Virus record (IMG/VR): IMGVR_UViG_3300033145_000623
Span: 1 to 30,592 of that record
Direction: 5' to 3' (one strand)
Length of the DNA: 30,592 nucleotides
Source of the DNA: a virus
Part shown: piece after piece, positions 7,854 to 19,585 of the stretch
Layout: every line of letters starts with the position of its first letter
How positions within the stretch are numbered: the first letter of the stretch is position 1
Position numbers and translations under genes: made by a program
Notes under the pieces: model-generated
Databases searched by the model: none
Seen by the model: the letters and a program-made list of their open reading frames with translations, nothing else
What the model was told of the DNA's origin: nothing

Positions 7854-9059
7854 CTAATTCTTTATTACAGCCAAAGGAGTAAGTTTTACCAAGACCTCGA
7901 CCAAGTCTTTTTGATTATCCATCACAGTTTCTATATCTTTATAACTTCCTACTGCTTCATCTAAATCTTCAACTCCCCTAATTGAATGTATAACTCCCAT
8001 ATCATCTAACTTCTTAACTTCTTCTTTTAAATTTAATTCTTTCTTAGCTCTTGTTCTACTCATCTTTCTACCTGCACCGTGAGAACAAGACATAAAACTT
8101 TCAAGGTTTCCTTTGCCTTTTACTATGTATGAAGGTGAGCCAAGTGAACCGGGAATTATACCTATTGTATCTTCTCTTGCAAGTGTCGCTCCTTTCCTGT
8201 GAACCCATACATTTTCTCCGAAGTGATTTTCAAGTGAAGCGTAATTGTGGGCTATGTTTATCATTTTTTCTTCTCCAATCAGACTATCGTAAATATGAAA
8301 CCCATCTATTAAATCTGTAAATATATCTTTTACCCTCTCCATCATCAACTTCCTATTAGCAAAAGCAAAATCTACACAATACTGCATTTCTCTTAAATAT
8401 GCTTGTCCTTCTTCGCTATTAACTGGTAAGTATGCAAGTTGCCATTCTTTAGGAACTGGACTGTGCCACCTCTTGTTTAGTTCTATTGCTAAATCGTTGT
8501 AATGTTTTGCTACTTTTAATCCAAGGTTACGAGAGCCAGAGTGTATCATTATCCAGATGTGTCCGTCGTCGCCCCTCTCTATGGAAATAAAATGATTGCC
8601 ACTTCCGAGCGTTCCAAGAGATTTTAGGGCATTATTTTTTTCGTCTGAACAAATATTTTTCCAATTTTTTAATCCTCCATAACAAAATTGTTTAGTCCAT
8701 TCTGGCATTAAATACTCATCTTGCATTTCTTTGTGCTTATTCATCCCAACTGGAATTACTTTCCTAATTTCACCCATTATTTTCTTTAAAGTTTCTGTAT
8801 CAATTTCAGTTAAAGAAGTTTTTACAGCACAGAGACCGCAGCCAATATCTTTTCCGATTATGTTGGTTACTATAACATCTTTAGTCGCTACTACAGATCC
8901 TATTGGACAGCCGAAACCTTGATGGGAATCTGGCATTATTGCGATGTGTTTGTAAATGAATGGGAGATTTGCAAGGTTCTTCACTTGCTCTAATGCTCCA
9001 TCTTCTATATCGTCAAGCCACATTTTTATTGGTTTTTTTTCTGTTGAGATTACTTTCAT
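7854..9059 (-). CDS. rtcB: RtcB-type RNA ligase
   Basis: 401 aa, full length for the shorter RtcB lineage. Family signatures appear in order: AIMPDSHQGFGCPIG (40-54), KDIGCGLCAVK (70-80, metal-binding Cys), SLGTLGSGNHF (147-157), MIHSGSRNLG (171-180), NIAHNYASLENHF (268-280), VHRKGATLA (286-294), FMSCSHGAGRKMSR (322-335, with the guanylylated His) and AVGSYKDIETVM. RtcB joins RNA 2',3'-cyclic phosphate or 3'-phosphate ends to 5'-OH ends using GTP and Mn. In phages it can reseal tRNAs cut by host anticodon nucleases, an inferred role here. It has its own near-consensus sigma-70 promoter, and that 68-bp promoter block is duplicated at 24551-24618. Confidence 0.95.
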   Translation of the reverse strand: MKVISTEKKPIKMWLDDIEDGALEQVKNLANLPFIYKHIAIMPDSHQGFGCPIGSVVATKDVIVTNIIGKDIGCGLCAVKTSLTEIDTETLKKIMGEIRKVIPVGMNKHKEMQDEYLMPEWTKQFCYGGLKNWKNICSDEKNNALKSLGTLGSGNHFISIERGDDGHIWIMIHSGSRNLGLKVAKHYNDLAIELNKRWHSPVPKEWQLAYLPVNSEEGQAYLREMQYCVDFAFANRKLMMERVKDIFTDLIDGFHIYDSLIGEEKMINIAHNYASLENHFGENVWVHRKGATLAREDTIGIIPGSLGSPSYIVKGKGNLESFMSCSHGAGRKMSRTRAKKELNLKEEVKKLDDMGVIHSIRGVEDLDEAVGSYKDIETVMDNQKDLVEVLVKLTPLAVIKN

Positions 9060-9078: not shown

Positions 9079-9128
9079 ATTATAGCATCTTTTTAAAATT
9101 TTGTCAAGAGAAAATTGGGGATAACTTT
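9079..9128 (-). promoter_or_regulatory. Sigma-70 promoter of rtcB with upstream GTTATCCCC element
   Basis: -35 TTGACA at 9102-9107, 17-bp spacer, extended -10 TGCTATAAT (hexamer at 9079-9084). Just upstream of -35 is AAAGTTATCCCCAATTTTC (9110-9128). Expected transcript start is about 15 bases before the ATG, with no Shine-Dalgarno in the leader. Confidence 0.88.
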
Positions 9129-10017
9129 ATAACAAAACTTCTTGTTTAAGTCTATCCTCTCCAATCTTGCAGTATTCTTCTGATAATTCACAGCCTATAA
9201 AATCTCTTCCTAAGTCTTTACAGGCTCGTGCGGTTGTCCAGCTTCCCATGAAAGGGTCGAGGATAATATCGTTTTTATCTGAAACAGAATGTATAATTTT
9301 AGAAATTAAGGTAATTGGTTTTTGGGTTGGATGCTTCTTTTTATCAATTTCTACTGGTATTTCCCAAACATCACTGCCACCTTTTTCTACAAGAGATAGG
9401 TTTTTATCATTTAATCTAACATATTCATCAAATCTATTATCTAAATTTAAGATTTTTTTAAGATTTTTATAGTTTTTAAAAAGTGGTATGTTCCCTGTTT
9501 CAAAAAATAACCATCCTGCGTTACCACATCCTTTATATATTTTAAGTCCCATTTTTTCTTTTATTTGCTTTGTTGTTAATTTTTTTTCTTGCCTTTTTTT
9601 ATAAATATATTCTCCAAAACCAATGTATATCTTTTTATTTAATCTTGTAATAATTTCATGGTTTCTACTATATCCACCATTTTTTTTATACCAAATTATT
9701 ATTTCATTAAATTTCATTTTTTTACTAAACAATTTTAAAACTTTGGTAATCATAAAAAATTCTCCAAAAAATATAAGATTCCCATTGTTTTTTAAAATTC
9801 TTTCACTTTCTTTTATCCATTTTTCTGACCACTTAGTAAAATCATTCCAGTTTTCAAAATTATCATTCTTAAATTCTTTACCCATATTGTAAGGCGGATC
9901 CGTCAAAACTAAATCAACACAATTATCTTCCATTTTTTCCATTAGTTTTAAGCAGTCGCCACAGACTACTTGGTTTATTCCGTCTTTCCAATTTTTTAAA
10001 TCTTTTAAATGTTTCAT
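9127..10017 (-). CDS. DNA adenine/cytosine-N4 methyltransferase with embedded HTH
   Basis: 296 aa. Order of motifs is that of beta-class amino-methyltransferases: DPPY (40-43) near the N-terminus, HPTQKP (229-234), then the SAM-binding motif DPFMGSWTTA (254-263). The motif normally reads DPFxGSGTT; the second Gly is Trp260. Between the two halves, residues about 134-200 (FGEYIYKKRQEKKLTTKQIK, then ETGNIPLFKN, LKKIL) resemble an XRE-type helix-turn-helix, so the target-recognition region may be a HTH insertion. Probably methylates phage DNA against host restriction. No cognate nuclease is nearby. It overlaps rmlB by ATGA. Confidence 0.9.
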   Translation of the reverse strand: MKHLKDLKNWKDGINQVVCGDCLKLMEKMEDNCVDLVLTDPPYNMGKEFKNDNFENWNDFTKWSEKWIKESERILKNNGNLIFFGEFFMITKVLKLFSKKMKFNEIIIWYKKNGGYSRNHEIITRLNKKIYIGFGEYIYKKRQEKKLTTKQIKEKMGLKIYKGCGNAGWLFFETGNIPLFKNYKNLKKILNLDNRFDEYVRLNDKNLSLVEKGGSDVWEIPVEIDKKKHPTQKPITLISKIIHSVSDKNDIILDPFMGSWTTARACKDLGRDFIGCELSEEYCKIGEDRLKQEVLL

Positions 10018-10991
10018 AACTTTATATCAGACCACCATTTAATATTTTCCTTATACCAATCTATGGTTTTTCTTAATCCTTCATTAAATTCTATTATAGG
10101 TTTCCATCCTAATTTTTTAATCTTAGATGAATCAATTGCATATCTCCAATCATGACCTCTCCTGTCATCTACATATTTAATCATTTGCTTTCCTTGATTC
10201 ATTGTTTTTAAAATTTTATAAGTAAGTTGCAAATTTGATAATTCACAATCTCCACCAATACAATAAGTTTCTCCAATTTCTCCTTTTTCTAAAATCAAAT
10301 CTATTGCCTTACAATGATCTTCTACATAAATCCAATCTCTTATATTAGAACCATCTCCATATAAAGGAACTTTTTTATTTTGCATTAAATTAGTTATAAA
10401 TAATGGAATAACTTTCTCTGGAAATTGATAAGGTCCGTAATTATTAGAACAATTAGAAATCGTTGCTTGTATTCCGTAAGTGTTAATATAAGAATTAACT
10501 AAATGATCTGATGATGCCTTTGATGCTGAATAAGGACTTTTTGGGTCATATCGAGATTCTTCATTAAAGGGTTTTTCATCTTTCATAAGTGAACCATAAA
10601 CTTCATCTGTTGAGATATGATGAAATCTCACTTCAATATTATTTTTTACCCAATTCAATAAATTATAAGTTCCGACAATATTAGTTCTAATAAATTCTCC
10701 TGGATCTTTAATAGAATTATCTACATGAGATTCTGCTGCAAAATGAACAATAGTATCAAGTTTAAATTCTTCATGAATTGCATCTAATTTAATTGATAAA
10801 AATTCATCTACAATATCACAATCAACAAAATAATATCTTGGATTATGTTTTATGCTTATTAGATTATTTCCAGAAGCCGCATAAGTACAAGAATCAAGAT
10901 TTATAACCATTATATCTTTTTGTTTTAAAAGGTAGTGAATAAAATTTGTTCCAATAAATCCACATCCTCCTGTAACTAAAATTGTTTTCAT
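10014..10991 (-). CDS. rmlB: dTDP-glucose 4,6-dehydratase
   Basis: 325 aa, full length. Rossmann NAD site TGGCGFIG (7-14), then FAAESHVDNS, the catalytic HISTDEVYGSL, the YSASKASSDHL active-site Tyr-x-x-x-Lys, NNYGPYQFPEKVIPLFI and RDWIYVEDH, all typical of RmlB/RfbB. It converts dTDP-glucose to dTDP-4-keto-6-deoxyglucose, the entry to rhamnose and other 6-deoxysugars. RmlA, RmlC and RmlD are absent from this window, so the product must feed host enzymes or phage genes elsewhere. It may supply sugar for glycosylation by the membrane glycosyltransferase at 4946-6271; that link is inference. Junctions on both sides are ATGA overlaps. Confidence 0.93.
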   Translation of the reverse strand: MKTILVTGGCGFIGTNFIHYLLKQKDIMVINLDSCTYAASGNNLISIKHNPRYYFVDCDIVDEFLSIKLDAIHEEFKLDTIVHFAAESHVDNSIKDPGEFIRTNIVGTYNLLNWVKNNIEVRFHHISTDEVYGSLMKDEKPFNEESRYDPKSPYSASKASSDHLVNSYINTYGIQATISNCSNNYGPYQFPEKVIPLFITNLMQNKKVPLYGDGSNIRDWIYVEDHCKAIDLILEKGEIGETYCIGGDCELSNLQLTYKILKTMNQGKQMIKYVDDRRGHDWRYAIDSSKIKKLGWKPIIEFNEGLRKTIDWYKENIKWWSDIKL

Positions 10992-13176: not shown

Positions 13177-14406
13177 CTATAATAATTTTTTCTGCCTTGT
13201 ATAGTAGTTCCATCTTTTTTGTCCGACTTCACAATAATGCTTATCCTGTTCAATAGCAACTATATCTTCAAACCCTGCGAAAAAACCACCGAGTGCTTCC
13301 GACAAAACTCCTGCAAATGGAACTAAAAGTTTTCTAGGAGCATACTCTTTTGGGGGTAATAATAGTTTAGCCAAATAAGTTGTGAGGTCTATATTTTTTA
13401 AAGTTGGGTGATCGCATTCAATAGTTCCATCACAAGTTCTTTGCTTTTTCGGAGCTTTACTGCAATAAAACACTGGATCTGCTGAGTCTATTTGCTGTGA
13501 GACTTGCTTGAAGAATCTGCTACAACCACCTAAATCATTATGCCCTCTAACATGTTTTGATGTATCGCTACTTCCCCAAATACTTCCTTTATTAGAAACC
13601 TCTTGTTTTTTACTTTTACTAACCCCACTCTGCCTATCAACAACCCCTGCCATTTCTTCGGAGAGGATGAAGTTTGAGGGGTATCTTGAGTTTGGGTTTT
13701 TATCTTCTTCTCTAATTTCCTGTGAACCTTGTCTTGCTCCACCTGCTAAAGTTCCTGCTTTTCTTAGCTTGTGAGGTTGTCCTTTTTCTTTACAAGGAAT
13801 ACGTCCCCCATCAATGTTAATCGCCCCAGCACCAGTTTTTGTGATTGATTCTATTGGTTTGCCCTCATAAGGTTTCTGAAACACACATATAAACTCAAAT
13901 GCTGGTTTAAGGGCTTGGAGTCCGTATTTGTGGTGTTGCCATTGTTTTGCGAGGGGGTCGGTTGGTTCTGATAATAGTTCGTTATTATTTCTATCGCCAC
14001 TTAAAGCACTCGTGTTTTTTTGTCCTGTTTGTTTTTTACTTAATGGATTTTTCTTTTTATTCATTGTTTCTTTCTTCTGTATCTGCGTATCAATCCTCGT
14101 CCCTTTCGGGAATCCTGAGCCAAAAAGGTAGCCAATAGCAGGATGAATCAAGAATCCCGCATCTTCAATCGCACAAGCCATTCTATGATAGCCACGAGTT
14201 CCAGCAAACGCCATACAGAACGCACCGGGGTGGAGGTGGGGCATAAGGGCTTTCCAAGTGGAGGGGTTGAAGGCTATGCCTGTGTTGTCCCATTTCTTAC
14301 CCATAAAGCCTAATTCGTATGGTGGATCCATAATAGCTGAATGGAATTTTGGACCATTGTAGGTCTTGCACCACTCTAAGATACATTGATTTTCTATTTT
14401 AATCAT
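13177..14406 (-). CDS. Site-specific DNA amino-methyltransferase (DPPY)
   Basis: 409 aa. Motif IV is SAIMDPPYELGF (23-34). The long middle contains GAGAINIDGGRIP and SRYPSNFILSEEM, then YCSKAPKKQRTCDGT, as in a well-known phage/ICE family of N4-cytosine or N6-adenine methyltransferases. Motif I comes near the C-terminus (LLVPFAGVLSEALGGFFAGF), with VPFAG in place of DPFxGSG. It overlaps the C5 methyltransferase C-terminal ORF by 8 bases. No partner nuclease. Specificity unknown. Confidence 0.88.
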   Translation of the reverse strand: MIKIENQCILEWCKTYNGPKFHSAIMDPPYELGFMGKKWDNTGIAFNPSTWKALMPHLHPGAFCMAFAGTRGYHRMACAIEDAGFLIHPAIGYLFGSGFPKGTRIDTQIQKKETMNKKKNPLSKKQTGQKNTSALSGDRNNNELLSEPTDPLAKQWQHHKYGLQALKPAFEFICVFQKPYEGKPIESITKTGAGAINIDGGRIPCKEKGQPHKLRKAGTLAGGARQGSQEIREEDKNPNSRYPSNFILSEEMAGVVDRQSGVSKSKKQEVSNKGSIWGSSDTSKHVRGHNDLGGCSRFFKQVSQQIDSADPVFYCSKAPKKQRTCDGTIECDHPTLKNIDLTTYLAKLLLPPKEYAPRKLLVPFAGVLSEALGGFFAGFEDIVAIEQDKHYCEVGQKRWNYYTRQKKLL

Positions 14407-15487
14407 ATAATCTTTTTATAATTTCACAAACTACATTTGAAACGACTCCGTTACCGCACATTTTATAACGCTGCGAGTTTGAGATTTCAACCTTTTCTCC
14501 TTTTTCATTTATTCCATATTTTGTGTGTCCATCTTCCCAACTCATCAATCTTTCACATTCTGTCGGGGTTAGTCTGCGGATTCTTGTGCCATTTAATGTG
14601 TGCTGTTGCATTCCAGTATCAAGAGTTTGTGCGATTCCTTTCCCAACTCTACCTCTACGAGTTTTTGAGTTTGGGACTGATAAGTTTATTGAGTCGCCCT
14701 CTTTTGCGATAGCATAACCTTTTTTGGTTGCTTCTTTTATCATAACTCCGTGCCTATCCTGTGCTGTCAATGTAAATGACGGGTCGCCGTTTTCTTTAAA
14801 GCGTCTTCCGTTCTGTCGCTTGTTTGGTCTGTCGGGAGTAAGGACTGGAATTATTATCGGAGTATGTCCTCCACCTGTACCCATTGCTTGTGTTAGCGCT
14901 GGACTTTTATCTTTCATTATTGCTGCATTTTTTTGAGTTCCGCCAACAACAAAAGGTATAACAACCTTTTGTCCATTTCTTTCAGATTTGCTTCCTGTGT
15001 TGGGTGTTAGTGTGCAAGTTATGTTGTCTTTTCTTGATTTAGAATTGTAATCATCGTAAATAAATGGTTGTCTATCTTTTACAGCATACAACCCAGTCCT
15101 TGCACCTTGTCCACCTCCTTGTGCAGATAGACAAGAACTTAATCCATCTGGGTCATAAACTCTTTCTCCTTGTGATGAATTTCTACTTAAATCTTCATTA
15201 CTTTTTTTCCATTTTTTAGAATTATTTAAACTTCCAATGTATTTTAATTCTTTTTCTTTTATGTAATTCCCATCCCCGTGTTGCTTATGTTCCGTAGCAG
15301 TTAAGCATCGTGCAATTTGGGTGGTCTGTAATTTCTCTTCACCCTTCCTAATAGCATTTTTGTCATCTTCTCCGAGAGGAAATACTTTTCTAGAACATTT
15401 TCCTGTAAGATTTCGCTTAAGCTCGGAGTATCTTTCCCATCGTGTAAGTGGAACTGGAAACAATGAAATTTGATTTTTGGATTGCAT
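14399..15487 (-). CDS. Cytosine-C5 methyltransferase, C-terminal half (TRD, motifs IX-X)
   Basis: 362 aa. The C-terminus carries motif IX (IRRLTPTECERLMSWEDGHT) and motif X (NSQRYKMCGNGVVSNVVCEI). The long region before it is a target-recognition region built of loose repeats of type (S/A)xxLTxxxG..G followed by a hydrophobic strand: ARCLTATEHK, SSCLSAQGGGQG, TCTLTPNTGS, PALTQAMGTGGGHT, SFTLTAQDRHG, AQTLDTGMQQH. Motifs I-VIII are in the upstream ORF at 15531-17093, so the enzyme is split as in the two-subunit M.AquI. The ATG at 15487 is one start; a -1 frameshift from the small upstream frame is another way to enter it. Confidence 0.88.
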   Translation of the reverse strand: MQSKNQISLFPVPLTRWERYSELKRNLTGKCSRKVFPLGEDDKNAIRKGEEKLQTTQIARCLTATEHKQHGDGNYIKEKELKYIGSLNNSKKWKKSNEDLSRNSSQGERVYDPDGLSSCLSAQGGGQGARTGLYAVKDRQPFIYDDYNSKSRKDNITCTLTPNTGSKSERNGQKVVIPFVVGGTQKNAAIMKDKSPALTQAMGTGGGHTPIIIPVLTPDRPNKRQNGRRFKENGDPSFTLTAQDRHGVMIKEATKKGYAIAKEGDSINLSVPNSKTRRGRVGKGIAQTLDTGMQQHTLNGTRIRRLTPTECERLMSWEDGHTKYGINEKGEKVEISNSQRYKMCGNGVVSNVVCEIIKRLYD

Positions 15488-15493
15488 AGTAAT

Positions 15494-15534
15494 CTTTTTT
15501 TTAGTTTATCTATTGTTTTTGTTGGTTTTTTCAT
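15494..15534 (-). other. Short overlapping start plus A8 slippery run before the MTase C-half
   Basis: An ATG at 15534 overlaps the TGA of the N-terminal methyltransferase ORF (ATGA). Its frame reads MKKPTKTIDKLKK, then meets eight adenines at 15495-15502 in the phase A_AAA_AAA. A -1 slip there continues straight into the C-terminal ORF (KITMQSKNQISLFP). Without a slip the frame runs to 15301 as a 77-codon ORF of no recognisable kind. Either programmed frameshifting, a leader, or independent starting at 15487 is possible. Confidence 0.45.
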
Positions 15535-17093
15535 AAAATTTCTTCCTTAGATAATGTGTCAAGTCTTTTTCCTACTATAAATACACGATTTCTTGATTGC
15601 GGAACAGAGAAATTTTTCGCATTCAAAACTTCAAAATCAATCGCATAATTTGCTTCACACAACTCTTCACAAATTATCTCCATAGTCTTTCCTTTATCGT
15701 GCGAAAGAAGTCCTTTTACATTTTCTAACAAAAACATTTTTGGTTGTTTGACTTTCAAGATTCTTATAACCTCATAAATTAAAGTTCCTCTCATATCATT
15801 AAATCCTTTTCTTTTTCCAGCAATTGAAAATGCTTGACAATTATGAAGAACGAGATTATTAGCTACATAAGAGTTATCTTCTTCAACCTCTATATTATAT
15901 ACTTTAGTTGATTTATTTATTCTTTCTTTAGAAACAAATCTGCCATAAAGATTTCTATCAATCCACAAACTATTATCTTGTTTATGTTTAACTTTATCAA
16001 AACCTATTGTCCAAGTATCTTTTTGATTAACAATCCTACCTTCTATTATAGTTGTTTTGGGTCTTTTGCAATATGTTATACAATAAGGTGTTTTATATAA
16101 TCTATGTATTATTTGCCCTAATTGATAAATTAAAATCTTACTTACACTTGTTGCACGATATACTCCATTTGAATAGCATCCATCTCCACTTATATAACCA
16201 TCTATGAAATATTGTAATTTATTTTTAGGTAAATTCATTAACCAAAAGGGTATAACCTTATTTGCTGCACCTTTACCACACTCTAAACATAGATTCATAA
16301 ATCTTTCATCTATTATTCTACATTTATATACTGTTCTCTCTTCTGTTTTTCCTATAGAATATTTTGATTTTTCCGCTACCTGCAAGAACTCTTTTAATTT
16401 ATGCTTACCTATACAAAAAATAACTTTATGATTATAAGAATTAATTCTATTCTTTCTCTTACCATTATTTATAAAGCCATCTGCTATATATCTACCAATA
16501 AGCCAACATTCTTCAATGGTTAATTCTTTTTTATTAGAACTATACTTATCACTCCATGTACCAAAACCTATAAAATCATCTTCTCTTAATTCATTAACCA
16601 TTATCCATTCACTTTTAGAGAAAGTTCGTTTATTTACTCTATCTTTTGCATCAAACACTCTAATCATTTTTTTACAATAGAGTGGATGTTCTTGTGTAAT
16701 CTGTAATAATGGTGATCCTTGAACTTTAAGATTATAAAAATGATCACTTTTTCTATTCATCGTTTTAACTACTTTCTTAAATCTATTTTTATGGGTTAAT
16801 ACCATATCACCAACTTTTATATCCTTAATCTCAATATGTCCTCTTTGTGTAGTAATAAGAGTATTGGCTAAAACACAAGGAAAACCACCAACTAATAAAT
16901 CAAAATCTGGTAATTCTTCTGGGATTATTTTTGTGCAATCTCCATAGTTTTTTATATTTGGAAATTTATATTTAAGAACAGATGAAGCGTATTTATCTAT
17001 TTCGCTCATCCCTACACATTCTGCATCTTCGTATGCTTGATGTATTCCCAACCCAAATCCTTCCACACCTGAGAACATTGAAAAATATTTCAT
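15531..17093 (-). CDS. Cytosine-C5 methyltransferase, N-terminal half, interrupted by an intein
   Basis: 520 aa from the ATG at 17093 (an in-frame ATG at 17135 would add 14 residues but lies inside a hairpin). The start MKYFSMFSGVEGFGLGIHQA is motif I (FxGxG). The catalytic motif IV reads GGFP, then a 346-aa intein, then CQAFSIAG. After splicing this restores GGFPCQAFS. Next come motif VI (FLLENVKGL) and motif VIII (NFSVPQSRNRVFIVGK), and the ORF ends soon after. The spliced host part is about 174 aa; the TRD and motifs IX-X are in the next ORF. The product should methylate cytosine C5 as a heterodimer or after frameshift fusion. It is transcribed from the promoter at 17175-17221. Confidence 0.93.
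   Translation of the reverse strand: MKYFSMFSGVEGFGLGIHQAYEDAECVGMSEIDKYASSVLKYKFPNIKNYGDCTKIIPEELPDFDLLVGGFPCVLANTLITTQRGHIEIKDIKVGDMVLTHKNRFKKVVKTMNRKSDHFYNLKVQGSPLLQITQEHPLYCKKMIRVFDAKDRVNKRTFSKSEWIMVNELREDDFIGFGTWSDKYSSNKKELTIEECWLIGRYIADGFINNGKRKNRINSYNHKVIFCIGKHKLKEFLQVAEKSKYSIGKTEERTVYKCRIIDERFMNLCLECGKGAANKVIPFWLMNLPKNKLQYFIDGYISGDGCYSNGVYRATSVSKILIYQLGQIIHRLYKTPYCITYCKRPKTTIIEGRIVNQKDTWTIGFDKVKHKQDNSLWIDRNLYGRFVSKERINKSTKVYNIEVEEDNSYVANNLVLHNCQAFSIAGKRKGFNDMRGTLIYEVIRILKVKQPKMFLLENVKGLLSHDKGKTMEIICEELCEANYAIDFEVLNAKNFSVPQSRNRVFIVGKRLDTLSKEEIL
15840..16877 (-). mobile_element. Intein with LAGLIDADG homing endonuclease in the MTase active site
   Basis: 346 codons, from Cys1 to Asn346, with the +1 residue being the methyltransferase catalytic Cys. 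Block A: CVLANTLITTQRGHIEIKDI then KVGDMVLT. Block B: LLQITQEHPLYCK (TxxH). Two LAGLIDADG helices: CWLIGRYIADGFI and LQYFIDGYISGDGC, each with the acidic metal ligand. Block F: VYNIEVEEDNSYVANN; block G: LVLHN followed by C. All splicing residues (Cys1, block B His, penultimate His, Asn, Cys+1) are present, so it should self-splice, and the endonuclease looks intact. Confidence 0.95.
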
Positions 17094-17146
17094 AAAAAAA
17101 ATCTTACACGATATTGAATAAGAACCCCAATACATTCGTATAAGAT
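17094..17146 (-). promoter_or_regulatory. Hairpin plus T-run in the MTase leader (attenuator-like)
   Basis: In the transcript, ATCTTATACGA (from 17146) pairs with TCGTGTAAGAT (ending 17101), extended inside by TATTG/CAATA, and is followed directly by about eight U residues and then the ATG at 17093. This has the form of an intrinsic terminator placed in the 5' leader. The alternative start at 17135 lies within the hairpin. Confidence 0.6.
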
Positions 17147-17759: not shown

Positions 17760-19025
17760 TTATTTATTTAAACTTTTAACTTTTTCGACTGCTTTATCTA
17801 ATGAGTCTGGCTCTCTAAACACATTATTTATATTATCATATTTCAATTTAAAAGAGCGTTTATAAACTCCTTCTCTTCTATCTATTTCAACACTTAAAAT
17901 AGTATTTCCTGTTAGAATATATTCTCTACCATCTCTTTCAAATTCACGCCATATCATTAAAACTTTGTCTGAATCTTGAGCAACTGCGGAACTTTCTTTT
18001 AAATCTTCAACTGTTGGTATTGTCCATTTTTCAATCTTTCTAATATGATGAACTAAGAAAATTACAATATCATATTTTAATGCAATTTTTTTAATTTTTC
18101 TAATTATTGTATCAATTTCAATTCTCTTATCACTTACTCGTTCACTGTCTTTCAGGAATCCTAAATGATCTATAAAAATAACTTTAACATTATGTTTAAT
18201 TTTTGCTTCAGCAATTCTCTCCTCTATCCAAGCAATATTATCATTTTTAATTATATTTGGAACTAAGAATAATGGAAAATCATTTTTATTAAATTTACTG
18301 AATAATTGCTTCAATGTCATTTCATAACTAAACCATAAGCATAAATGTTTATCTTCTTTTGAAATATTTTGTGTCATTGTTTGAATTAGAGAAGTTTTTC
18401 CACATTTTGTTGGACCTGAGATTATAATAAGTTCTCCAGGAAAAAAACCATTTAACCAATTATCTAATGTTGGAAATCCTGATTTTATTATTTCTTTACT
18501 TTCATCTTCTTTTGCTTGAATATCTAATGCTATTTTTTTCTCAAAAGAATCTATTATTCTATCATCTTCATTATATTTGAAAAGATTTTTATTATTTCCT
18601 AAATCTGAGTATTCATTAAATATTTGTTCAATTTCTTTTTTATTATTTTCTATATTATTTCCTTGTCCGATATTTTGACTAAATTCATTTAATTTAAAAA
18701 ACATCTTTCTCATTATTGAAGTTCTTTTTACTTCTAAAATATAATTACTTAAATTAGAACTAGTTGTTACTATATTTGTAAGCGAAATTAAATGAGATCT
18801 TCCTCCTATATGTGTCAATACTTCTTTTTTTTCAAGATATGAAGCTAATATAGCCATATCACTACTCTTAGTTTCTTTAATGCCTGAAAAAATCATTTTA
18901 TTTTTATCAGAATAGAAATCATCTTCACTTAAAGAAGTTAAAACTTCTTCTACTTTTTTATGATCAATAAGTAGACAACCTAAAATACATTCTTCTATTT
19001 CTATATTTTGTGGTGGTTTTATCAT
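17760..19025 (-). CDS. dnaB: Replicative DNA helicase, DnaB family
   Basis: 421 aa. N-terminal helical domain starting NIEIEECILGCLLIDHKKVE (7-26) as in DnaB-N, a linker, then a RecA-like core: Walker A ISGPTKCGKTSL (202-213), Walker B VIFIDHLGF (282-290), the sensor FLVHH (323-327) and DLKESSAVAQDSDKVLMIWR (341-360), the typical DnaB H4 region. It unwinds the phage replication fork 5' to 3'. No separate primase gene is visible in the window. Overlaps the MT-A70 gene by ATGA. Confidence 0.94.
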   Translation of the reverse strand: MIKPPQNIEIEECILGCLLIDHKKVEEVLTSLSEDDFYSDKNKMIFSGIKETKSSDMAILASYLEKKEVLTHIGGRSHLISLTNIVTTSSNLSNYILEVKRTSIMRKMFFKLNEFSQNIGQGNNIENNKKEIEQIFNEYSDLGNNKNLFKYNEDDRIIDSFEKKIALDIQAKEDESKEIIKSGFPTLDNWLNGFFPGELIIISGPTKCGKTSLIQTMTQNISKEDKHLCLWFSYEMTLKQLFSKFNKNDFPLFLVPNIIKNDNIAWIEERIAEAKIKHNVKVIFIDHLGFLKDSERVSDKRIEIDTIIRKIKKIALKYDIVIFLVHHIRKIEKWTIPTVEDLKESSAVAQDSDKVLMIWREFERDGREYILTGNTILSVEIDRREGVYKRSFKLKYDNINNVFREPDSLDKAVEKVKSLNK

Positions 19026-19585
19026 AATTTTATATTGCTTTTAATTTCGTCTCCCCATATATCCCAACCTTTTGTTTTTTTTCTTGCAAATAATTCTATG
19101 CGGGGTAAGTCGCCCATTAATTCTACTATTCTTTCCCTTGCTTCATTTGGTTTTTTACTATGTTTCTCTCTTTGAGTTTCAATTAAAGATTTTATATTTT
19201 TCTTTTTAATTAATTTATGGATATCTCCTTTCGTTGCCAATAAACATAATTCAATTCCACTCTTCATAGTATATGCTCCCATAAAACAAACTGGTTTATT
19301 TGTTTTTGTTTTTTTAGCCCAAGCAAAACCTATTGTCTTATATTTAAACCCCCATTCACTTATTACTTCTATACATTTAACTAAATGATAATCTGTCGTC
19401 CAAATAAATAAAATACAATTATCATTTGCTATTTTATTTACTGCAATTTTTTTAATAGATTCCGAACCCAACACATTATATGGAGGTCTTCTCATTCCTT
19501 TTACAGTGGTACAATTTGGCTTTGCATCATTATCGTTATAATAACTCCAAGGTGGGTCGGCATATATTATTTGATATTTTTTCAT
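19022..19585 (-). CDS. MT-A70 family adenine-N6 DNA methyltransferase
   Basis: 187 aa. MT-A70 layout: YQIIYADPPWSYYN (4-17, DPPW catalytic motif), NCILFIWTTDYHL, TIGFAWAKKT, the ATKGD strand and the end GDLPRIELFARKKTKGWDIW. This family methylates adenine-N6 in DNA, often at phage-specific sites. It is located inside the replication block, with ATGA overlaps on both sides. Confidence 0.92.
   Translation of the reverse strand: MKKYQIIYADPPWSYYNDNDAKPNCTTVKGMRRPPYNVLGSESIKKIAVNKIANDNCILFIWTTDYHLVKCIEVISEWGFKYKTIGFAWAKKTKTNKPVCFMGAYTMKSGIELCLLATKGDIHKLIKKKNIKSLIETQREKHSKKPNEARERIVELMGDLPRIELFARKKTKGWDIWGDEIKSNIKL

Follow-up and report, generated by a model that had tools for sequence, protein, structure and literature searches.

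Identification of an intein inserted at the active-site cysteine in a phage methyltransferase

The insert that splits the active-site motif of a C5-cytosine methyltransferase (MTase) gene in the phage contig analysed here (30,592 nucleotides, hereafter the window) is very probably a class 1 intein with a two-motif LAGLIDADG endonuclease, belonging to a widespread family that occupies the Pro-Cys-Gln codons of MTase motif IV; it would be a selfish, non-regulatory element, and its host MTase is interrupted again downstream. The identity of the intein, its boundaries and the reuse of the catalytic Cys rest on sequence, a structure model and comparative genomics.

The host gene, ORF A (15531-17135, 534 aa; all features of this locus lie on the minus strand), encodes C5-cytosine MTase motifs I-VIII split by the intein. 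Because the homologues begin at Met15 (MKYFSMFSG, 17093), the precursor is likely 520 aa long with its start Met at 17093, rather than 534 aa. The N-extein (16878-17093, PF00145 positions 1-71) runs from motif I to GGFP of motif IV and shares 43–46% identity with the MTases of SPbetaL3, MMB025 and Drs3. The intein (15840-16877, 346 aa), delimited by domain matches, alignment and model, consists of a Hint splicing domain with a LAGLIDADG endonuclease. The C-extein within ORF A (15534-15839), recognised by its identity to homologues, runs from CQAFSIAG (IV) to RNRVFIVG (VIII) and then to the stop, and is 65.6% identical to the Drs3 MTase over 15839-15570. At the N junction DLLVGGFP is followed by the intein start CVLANTLI, and at the C junction the intein end NLVLHN is followed by CQAFSIAGKR. 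The first-pass annotation had placed the intein at 15840-16877 (residues 87-432), and these boundaries are exact to the base; it had also proposed that the insertion lies at the catalytic Cys doubling as the +1 nucleophile, which agrees with the P-C-Q of motif IV spanning the junction.

ORF A matches PF00145 of Pfam on either side of the insert (9.7e-56) and TIGR00675 (9e-64). The insert matches the Pfam families Intein_splicing (6.5e-8), Hint_2 (5.1e-7) and LAGLIDADG_3 (2.4e-4), and the NCBIfam model intein_Cterm at a score exceeding the cut-off (2.8e-6). Sequence and alignment place the N-terminal splicing nucleophile Cys1, with Pro at -1, at 16875-16877, and block B TQEH (T61 and H64, invariant in the alignment) at 16686-16697. 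The first LAGLIDADG motif lies in the WLIGRYIADGF region with the catalytic D133 (16473-16505) and the second in the FIDGYISGDGC region with the catalytic D232 (16176-16211), both from alignment and profile match. The penultimate His345 and terminal Asn346 (15840-15845, Asn codon 15842-15840) were located by the intein_Cterm model and the alignment, and Cys+1, the catalytic Cys of PCQ (15837-15839), by superposition of the C-extein on M.HhaI. Across 44 aligned same-site inteins C1, T61, H64, H345 and N346 are invariant and the LAGLIDADG acids D133 and D232 nearly so, all of them being present in the window intein; the invariance of Cys1 and Pro -1, set by the parsing rule, and of HN, set by the search pattern, is partly selection, while T..H was not imposed. 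The insert thus combines Cys1, block B TxxH, HN with Cys+1 and a Hint fold, as class 1 inteins do, with the two motifs and catalytic acids of a LAGLIDADG homing intein, and ORF A has motifs I-VIII of a C5-cytosine MTase, including PCQ and ENV, and the M.HhaI fold. Judged from the sequence, this set of motifs is not chance, and the claim of full splicing blocks and two LAGLIDADG motifs is borne out, all residues predicted to serve splicing and homing being intact.

The modelling of the intein that had been proposed gave a confident AlphaFold model (intein alone, pLDDT 95.6, pTM 0.91), for which the top solved folds are intact endonuclease-bearing inteins, namely TliVMA (7qsu, E 1.7e-19), PI-SceI (1vde/1ef0), PI-PfuI and PI-PkoII, with I-DmoI as a structural match for the endonuclease part. 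A profile search with the window intein retrieved PI-PkoII (1.4e-19), PI-SceI (2.5e-12) and the DnaX and DnaB mini-inteins. The best structural matches, PI-SceI (VMA1) and TliVMA, share the Hint domain with an inserted LAGLIDADG endonuclease, but their host is a V-type ATPase and their sequence identity to the window intein is 13–18%. The NrdD intein of Lactococcus phage 949 is about 30% identical along the intein, but its host is an anaerobic ribonucleotide reductase. In the model of the whole precursor, which is of lower confidence (pTM 0.69), the extein half matches M.HhaI (1.6e-8, 42–46% identity) and also M.HaeIII, and by the M.HhaI match the residue at +1 for splicing corresponds to the catalytic Cys in motif IV.

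Recurrence of the insertion site in viruses and prokaryotes

A search for inteins in motif IV of phage C5-MTases, as the first-pass annotation had recommended, found many at the identical position. In tblastn of ORF A against phage records, 50 contained a single place that accounted for 80% or more of the query with its intein, while the spliced extein alone matched 1,765 phage records. The P-C...HN-CQ junction was seen in five records (Lactobacillus phage Nyseid, Propionibacterium phage B22, Mannheimia phage 587AP2, a faecal phage and the P1-type Dmt), and a scan with a degenerate DNA pattern for HN-CQ[A/D]xS[I/V/M]AG returned 81 stretches from viruses and 37 from prokaryote genomes sampled at one per species. 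Both junctions could be parsed in 105 loci, representing 78 distinct inteins from viruses, bacteria and one archaeal metagenome-assembled genome (MAG). Every parsed case has T..H and uses the catalytic Cys as its +1 nucleophile. Nearly all of these inteins are 308–363 aa long, and two are 141-aa mini-inteins without the endonuclease region (L088:3212-3634 and L129:6582-7004, the latter in a Methanomethylophilaceae MAG).

Uniqueness of the insertion site is rejected by the tblastn search, the pattern scans and the parsed loci. The suggested novelty of the site stands only in part: with 105 loci it is not rare, and no description of a C5-MTase motif IV intein was found in the open-access literature searched. 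The insertion allele is recurrent and apparently undescribed in that literature, with prior notice elsewhere possible; the element is of a known kind, a homing intein, and the site itself is apparently new to description. Among known systems, the actinophage methylase intein described in passages of PMC9957025 is likewise a LAGLIDADG-bearing intein in a phage DNA methylase and moves between phages. The mycobacteriophage DNMT-1/2 inteins in the corresponding passages of PMC5050341 also lie in phage DNA methylases, but their hosts are listed there as N6/N4 methylases; those passages of the two papers make no mention of cytosine-C5 enzymes or of the catalytic-Cys site.

Presence and absence of a same-site intein in P1-type phages

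The dmt gene of OP279344 (annotated as P1) holds a 341-aa intein, and the same element is found in RCS47 and Ro157c2YLVW. Like the window intein, it lies between Pro and the catalytic Cys and has Cys1, TxxH, HN, Cys+1 and LAGLIDADG motifs; relative to the window intein it is a distant member of the same-site set, and its host Dmt forms a single long ORF together with a fused adenine MTase, in contrast to the interrupted MTase of the window. The exact empty site, CCT followed directly by TGTCAGGCATTCAGT, occurs in dmt of P1 NC_005856, of P7 and of an E. coli plasmid. Removal of the 1023-nt intein from dmt of OP279344 joins CC(A/T) to TGTCAGGC and leaves the same length as in P7 and E. coli ETEC4085, whose genes are intein-free. 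A match to P1-type dmt occurs in 493 E. coli records, of which 152 carry the intein, each copy being at least 99% identical though the genes vary more. Precise intein-free alleles and a sporadic distribution, as expected of a homing intein, are found for this P1-type relative; for the window intein itself, the intein-free homologues found are distant. Since P1-type dmt genes that are otherwise nearly identical differ in whether they hold the element, the intein appears dispensable to these phages, and the same-site intein is, judged from the P1-type relative, mobile as well. In addition, Dmt of P1 NC_005856 (L143) reads LVWGTPC where P7 and others have LVGGTPC, a Gly to Trp change in motif IV beside the empty site.

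The window locus by itself is ordinary. What matters is a recurrent intein allele in a textbook enzyme family together with a natural presence/absence series in P1; this series, available in E. coli, allows one to ask whether an intein at a catalytic residue costs or delays activity, how Pro -1 is tolerated and how the site is invaded.

Lateral movement of the intein

The intein tree groups the window intein with those of a Lachnospiraceae MAG (L141) and two viral contigs (L092 and L069) (SH-aLRT 93), which are the closest to it (40–48% identity over the full length). Their host MTases belong to a different group from the window MTase, L069 being itself interrupted at a GA repeat, and their exteins do not group with the window extein (AU p = 0.0105, lnL difference 29), a conflict that is weakened by the long branch of the window extein. 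Because the intein and extein groupings conflict, the window intein is, with the same long-branch caveat, considered to have moved between MTases. Furthermore, the exteins of L026 and L029 are 73% identical while their inteins are 33% identical, a contrast that we read as intein turnover at one site. Empty sites, near-identical copies, tree conflict and turnover are together the marks of a homing element.

The MTases closest to that of the window (L264, L271, L225 and L230) are intein-free single ORFs from phages sharing the MT-A70 gene with the window. Regarding near relatives of the window phage, the DnaB query gave none, the MT-A70 query gave relatives 64–73% identical and none with an intein in the flanks examined, and a query with the MTase at 13177-14406 gave distant matches only. 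No close relative of the window phage, and with it no empty allele of the exact window gene, was found.

Interruption of the methyltransferase downstream of the intein

ORF A stops at 15531, twelve residues past motif VIII (RNRVFIVG), and its frame holds neither the recognition domain nor motifs IX-X. The stop overlaps an ATG in the sequence ATGA (15531-15534), with AAGGA 9 nt upstream, a possible site of termination-reinitiation. ORF B (15301-15534, 77 aa), in a third frame, contains SLSEILQENVLEKYFLSEKM, which resembles the segment after motif VIII of SPbeta-type MTases (phrog_16143, 4.6e-4). An A8 homopolymer (15495-15502) separates ATGA from ORF C (14399-15487, 362 aa), which differs in frame from ORF A and encodes the target recognition region and motifs IX-X (PF00145 positions 230-322, 6.1e-8; TIGR00675, 1.3e-11). 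With A9 (or A6) in place of A8, the ATG at 15534 would be in frame with ORF C, and slippage might occur at this tract. Programmed -1 frameshifting was considered as well: heptamers of the form X XXY YYZ and of the correct phase were sought by eye at both frame changes and none was found.

Intact MTases mapped onto the window DNA follow frame 1 down to 15540-15570; those of SPbeta and MMB025 type then match frame 3 (15429-15328) and those of SAC12B type frame 2 (from 15412), and the remainder lies in frame 2 through to the end. Over 15412-15330 the frame of ORF B resembles SPbeta-type MTases (LREILEEYVDEKYYLS) and that of ORF C resembles SAC12B-type ones (HLRGRSTRKVFPI). One of the two may be a shadow, the +1 reading of a SAC12B-type gene naturally yielding an SPbeta-like peptide. 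Two different known peptides from after motif VIII, KVFPLGED-like and EKYFLSEKM-like, are encoded by the same DNA in two frames, in this part of the window and also in L061 and L088; it looks as if one MTase subfamily is shifted in frame against the other, and shadow frames of this sort may underlie phrog_16143. When plasmids were searched with a hybrid of B and C, nothing was found.

Because ORF A stops after motif VIII, a single-chain active enzyme cannot result from splicing alone. The statement that the enzyme is inactive until the intein leaves needs qualification: removal is at most necessary, and it is not sufficient, as a different frame encodes the recognition domain and motifs IX/X. 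Similarly, a spliced product of about 20 kDa is expected from ORF A, yet it would be just the N-terminal portion of a C5-MTase (motifs I-VIII). Many other intein-bearing MTases of the set continue in a single frame to motif X. The window locus probably encodes at best a two-piece enzyme (spliced ORF A plus ORF C); it is likelier to be a gene that is damaged or phase-off but retains a complete intein, and as sequenced the MTase is probably non-functional.

Of two readings, we prefer a damaged or off-state gene to an enzyme that works as two subunits. The former reading, in which the MTase gene is a pseudogene or has assembly indels past motif VIII and the intein persists only as a homing element, seems reasonably probable to us. 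It is consistent with the frame changing twice over some 250 nt when compared with SPbeta-type MTases, with the intact appearance of the remaining long genes of the window, and with Mannheimia phage 587AP2, which likewise keeps an intein in an MTase ORF ending soon after it; against it, ORF C retains good conservation of motifs IX-X. In this metagenomic contig, assembly errors could also account for the downstream breaks in frame.

A working enzyme of two subunits, spliced ORF A and ORF C, made by termination-reinitiation at ATGA and possibly phase-variable via A8, is considerably more doubtful. Split C5-MTases exist, for example M.AquI and M.EcoHK31I. In the window, two adjacent ORFs hold the motifs, the start of the second is ambiguous, and their joint action is putative. 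The ATGA overlap, the upstream AAGGA, the A9 that would link the ATG at 15534 to ORF C and the conserved motifs kept in both halves speak for such an enzyme, as do the intein-bearing relatives L061, L069, L073 and L088, interrupted at G9, (GA)n, (GACA)n and G9, respectively. However, the ATG at 15534, as assembled, opens ORF B with its stop at 15301, the closest relatives have the MTase in a single ORF, and the segment 15570-15410 is without a clear counterpart in them.

The simple repeats in these four relatives lie 3' of the intein at the frame break, and G-tracts are also present in L095 and L118, two further intein-bearing phage C5-MTase genes. The occurrence of repeat tracts in such genes suggests phase-variable MTases. 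In Mannheimia phage 587AP2 (L015) the intein-bearing MTase ORF ends a short way past the intein and is followed by overlapping genes for an MTase C-terminal part and an HNH endonuclease.

Predicted splicing and the question of regulation

Splicing and homing of the window intein are predicted activities. From the residues present, splicing would begin with an N-S acyl shift at Cys1, followed by transesterification to Cys+1, the catalytic Cys, cyclisation of Asn346 and an S-N shift, which would leave a scarless GGFPCQAF and restore motif IV. The endonuclease would cut intein-free alleles at the site, and repair would copy the intein in. According to passages of PMC5050341, conserved active-centre codons are the preferred homes of inteins in mycobacteriophage proteins; in the window enzyme, the intein would reside at an invariant site where imprecise removal would destroy the catalytic residue, and regulation would not be the reason. 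The Pro at -1 of the same-site inteins is imposed by the MTase motif. In another intein, according to a work cited in a passage of PMC8891592, Pro -1 attenuates N-cleavage 1000-fold; as it is unfavourable for the first splicing step there, efficient splicing is not guaranteed here.

It had been proposed that splicing acts as a switch for DNA methylation. In such a switch or timer, which we regard as improbable, the precursor would accumulate and C5 methylation would wait for a signal, or for the slow kinetics at Pro -1, before the intein exits. The catalytic Cys is the +1 nucleophile throughout, so the unspliced form should lack an assembled motif IV; Pro -1, fixed by the MTase motif, slows the N-S acyl shift in the intein of PMC8891592, and mycobacteriophage inteins with tuned splicing rates are described in the passages of PMC5050341. 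Against this, P1-type phages with and without the intein in dmt indicate that phages do without it, the intein turns over at the site, and the window enzyme is broken downstream. The sporadic occurrence of a related element among near-identical P1-type phages, and its jumps from one MTase to another unrelated one, are as expected of a selfish homing intein. On these comparisons the intein is a selfish element of wide distribution, and none of the results supports a methylation switch. It is only a slight chance that the catalytic Cys as +1 together with the obligatory Pro -1 makes splicing slow or conditional, with intein-bearing P1-type phages methylating C5 later than their intein-free siblings; if true, the delayed methylation would be a timer set by the intein. 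The reading of residues 87-432 as an MTase insertion domain, which the first-pass annotation had named as a refutation of its proposal, is practically eliminated by the Hint and LAGLIDADG fold, the intein matches and the empty sites in P1-type dmt, and nothing was found in its favour.

Besides this locus, at least three more genes of the 30.6-kb phage contig resemble DNA MTases (N6/N4-type and MT-A70; 9127-10017, 13177-14406 and 19022-19585), and the contig also has genes for an RtcB ligase (7854-9059) and an RmlB-like dehydratase (10014-10991).
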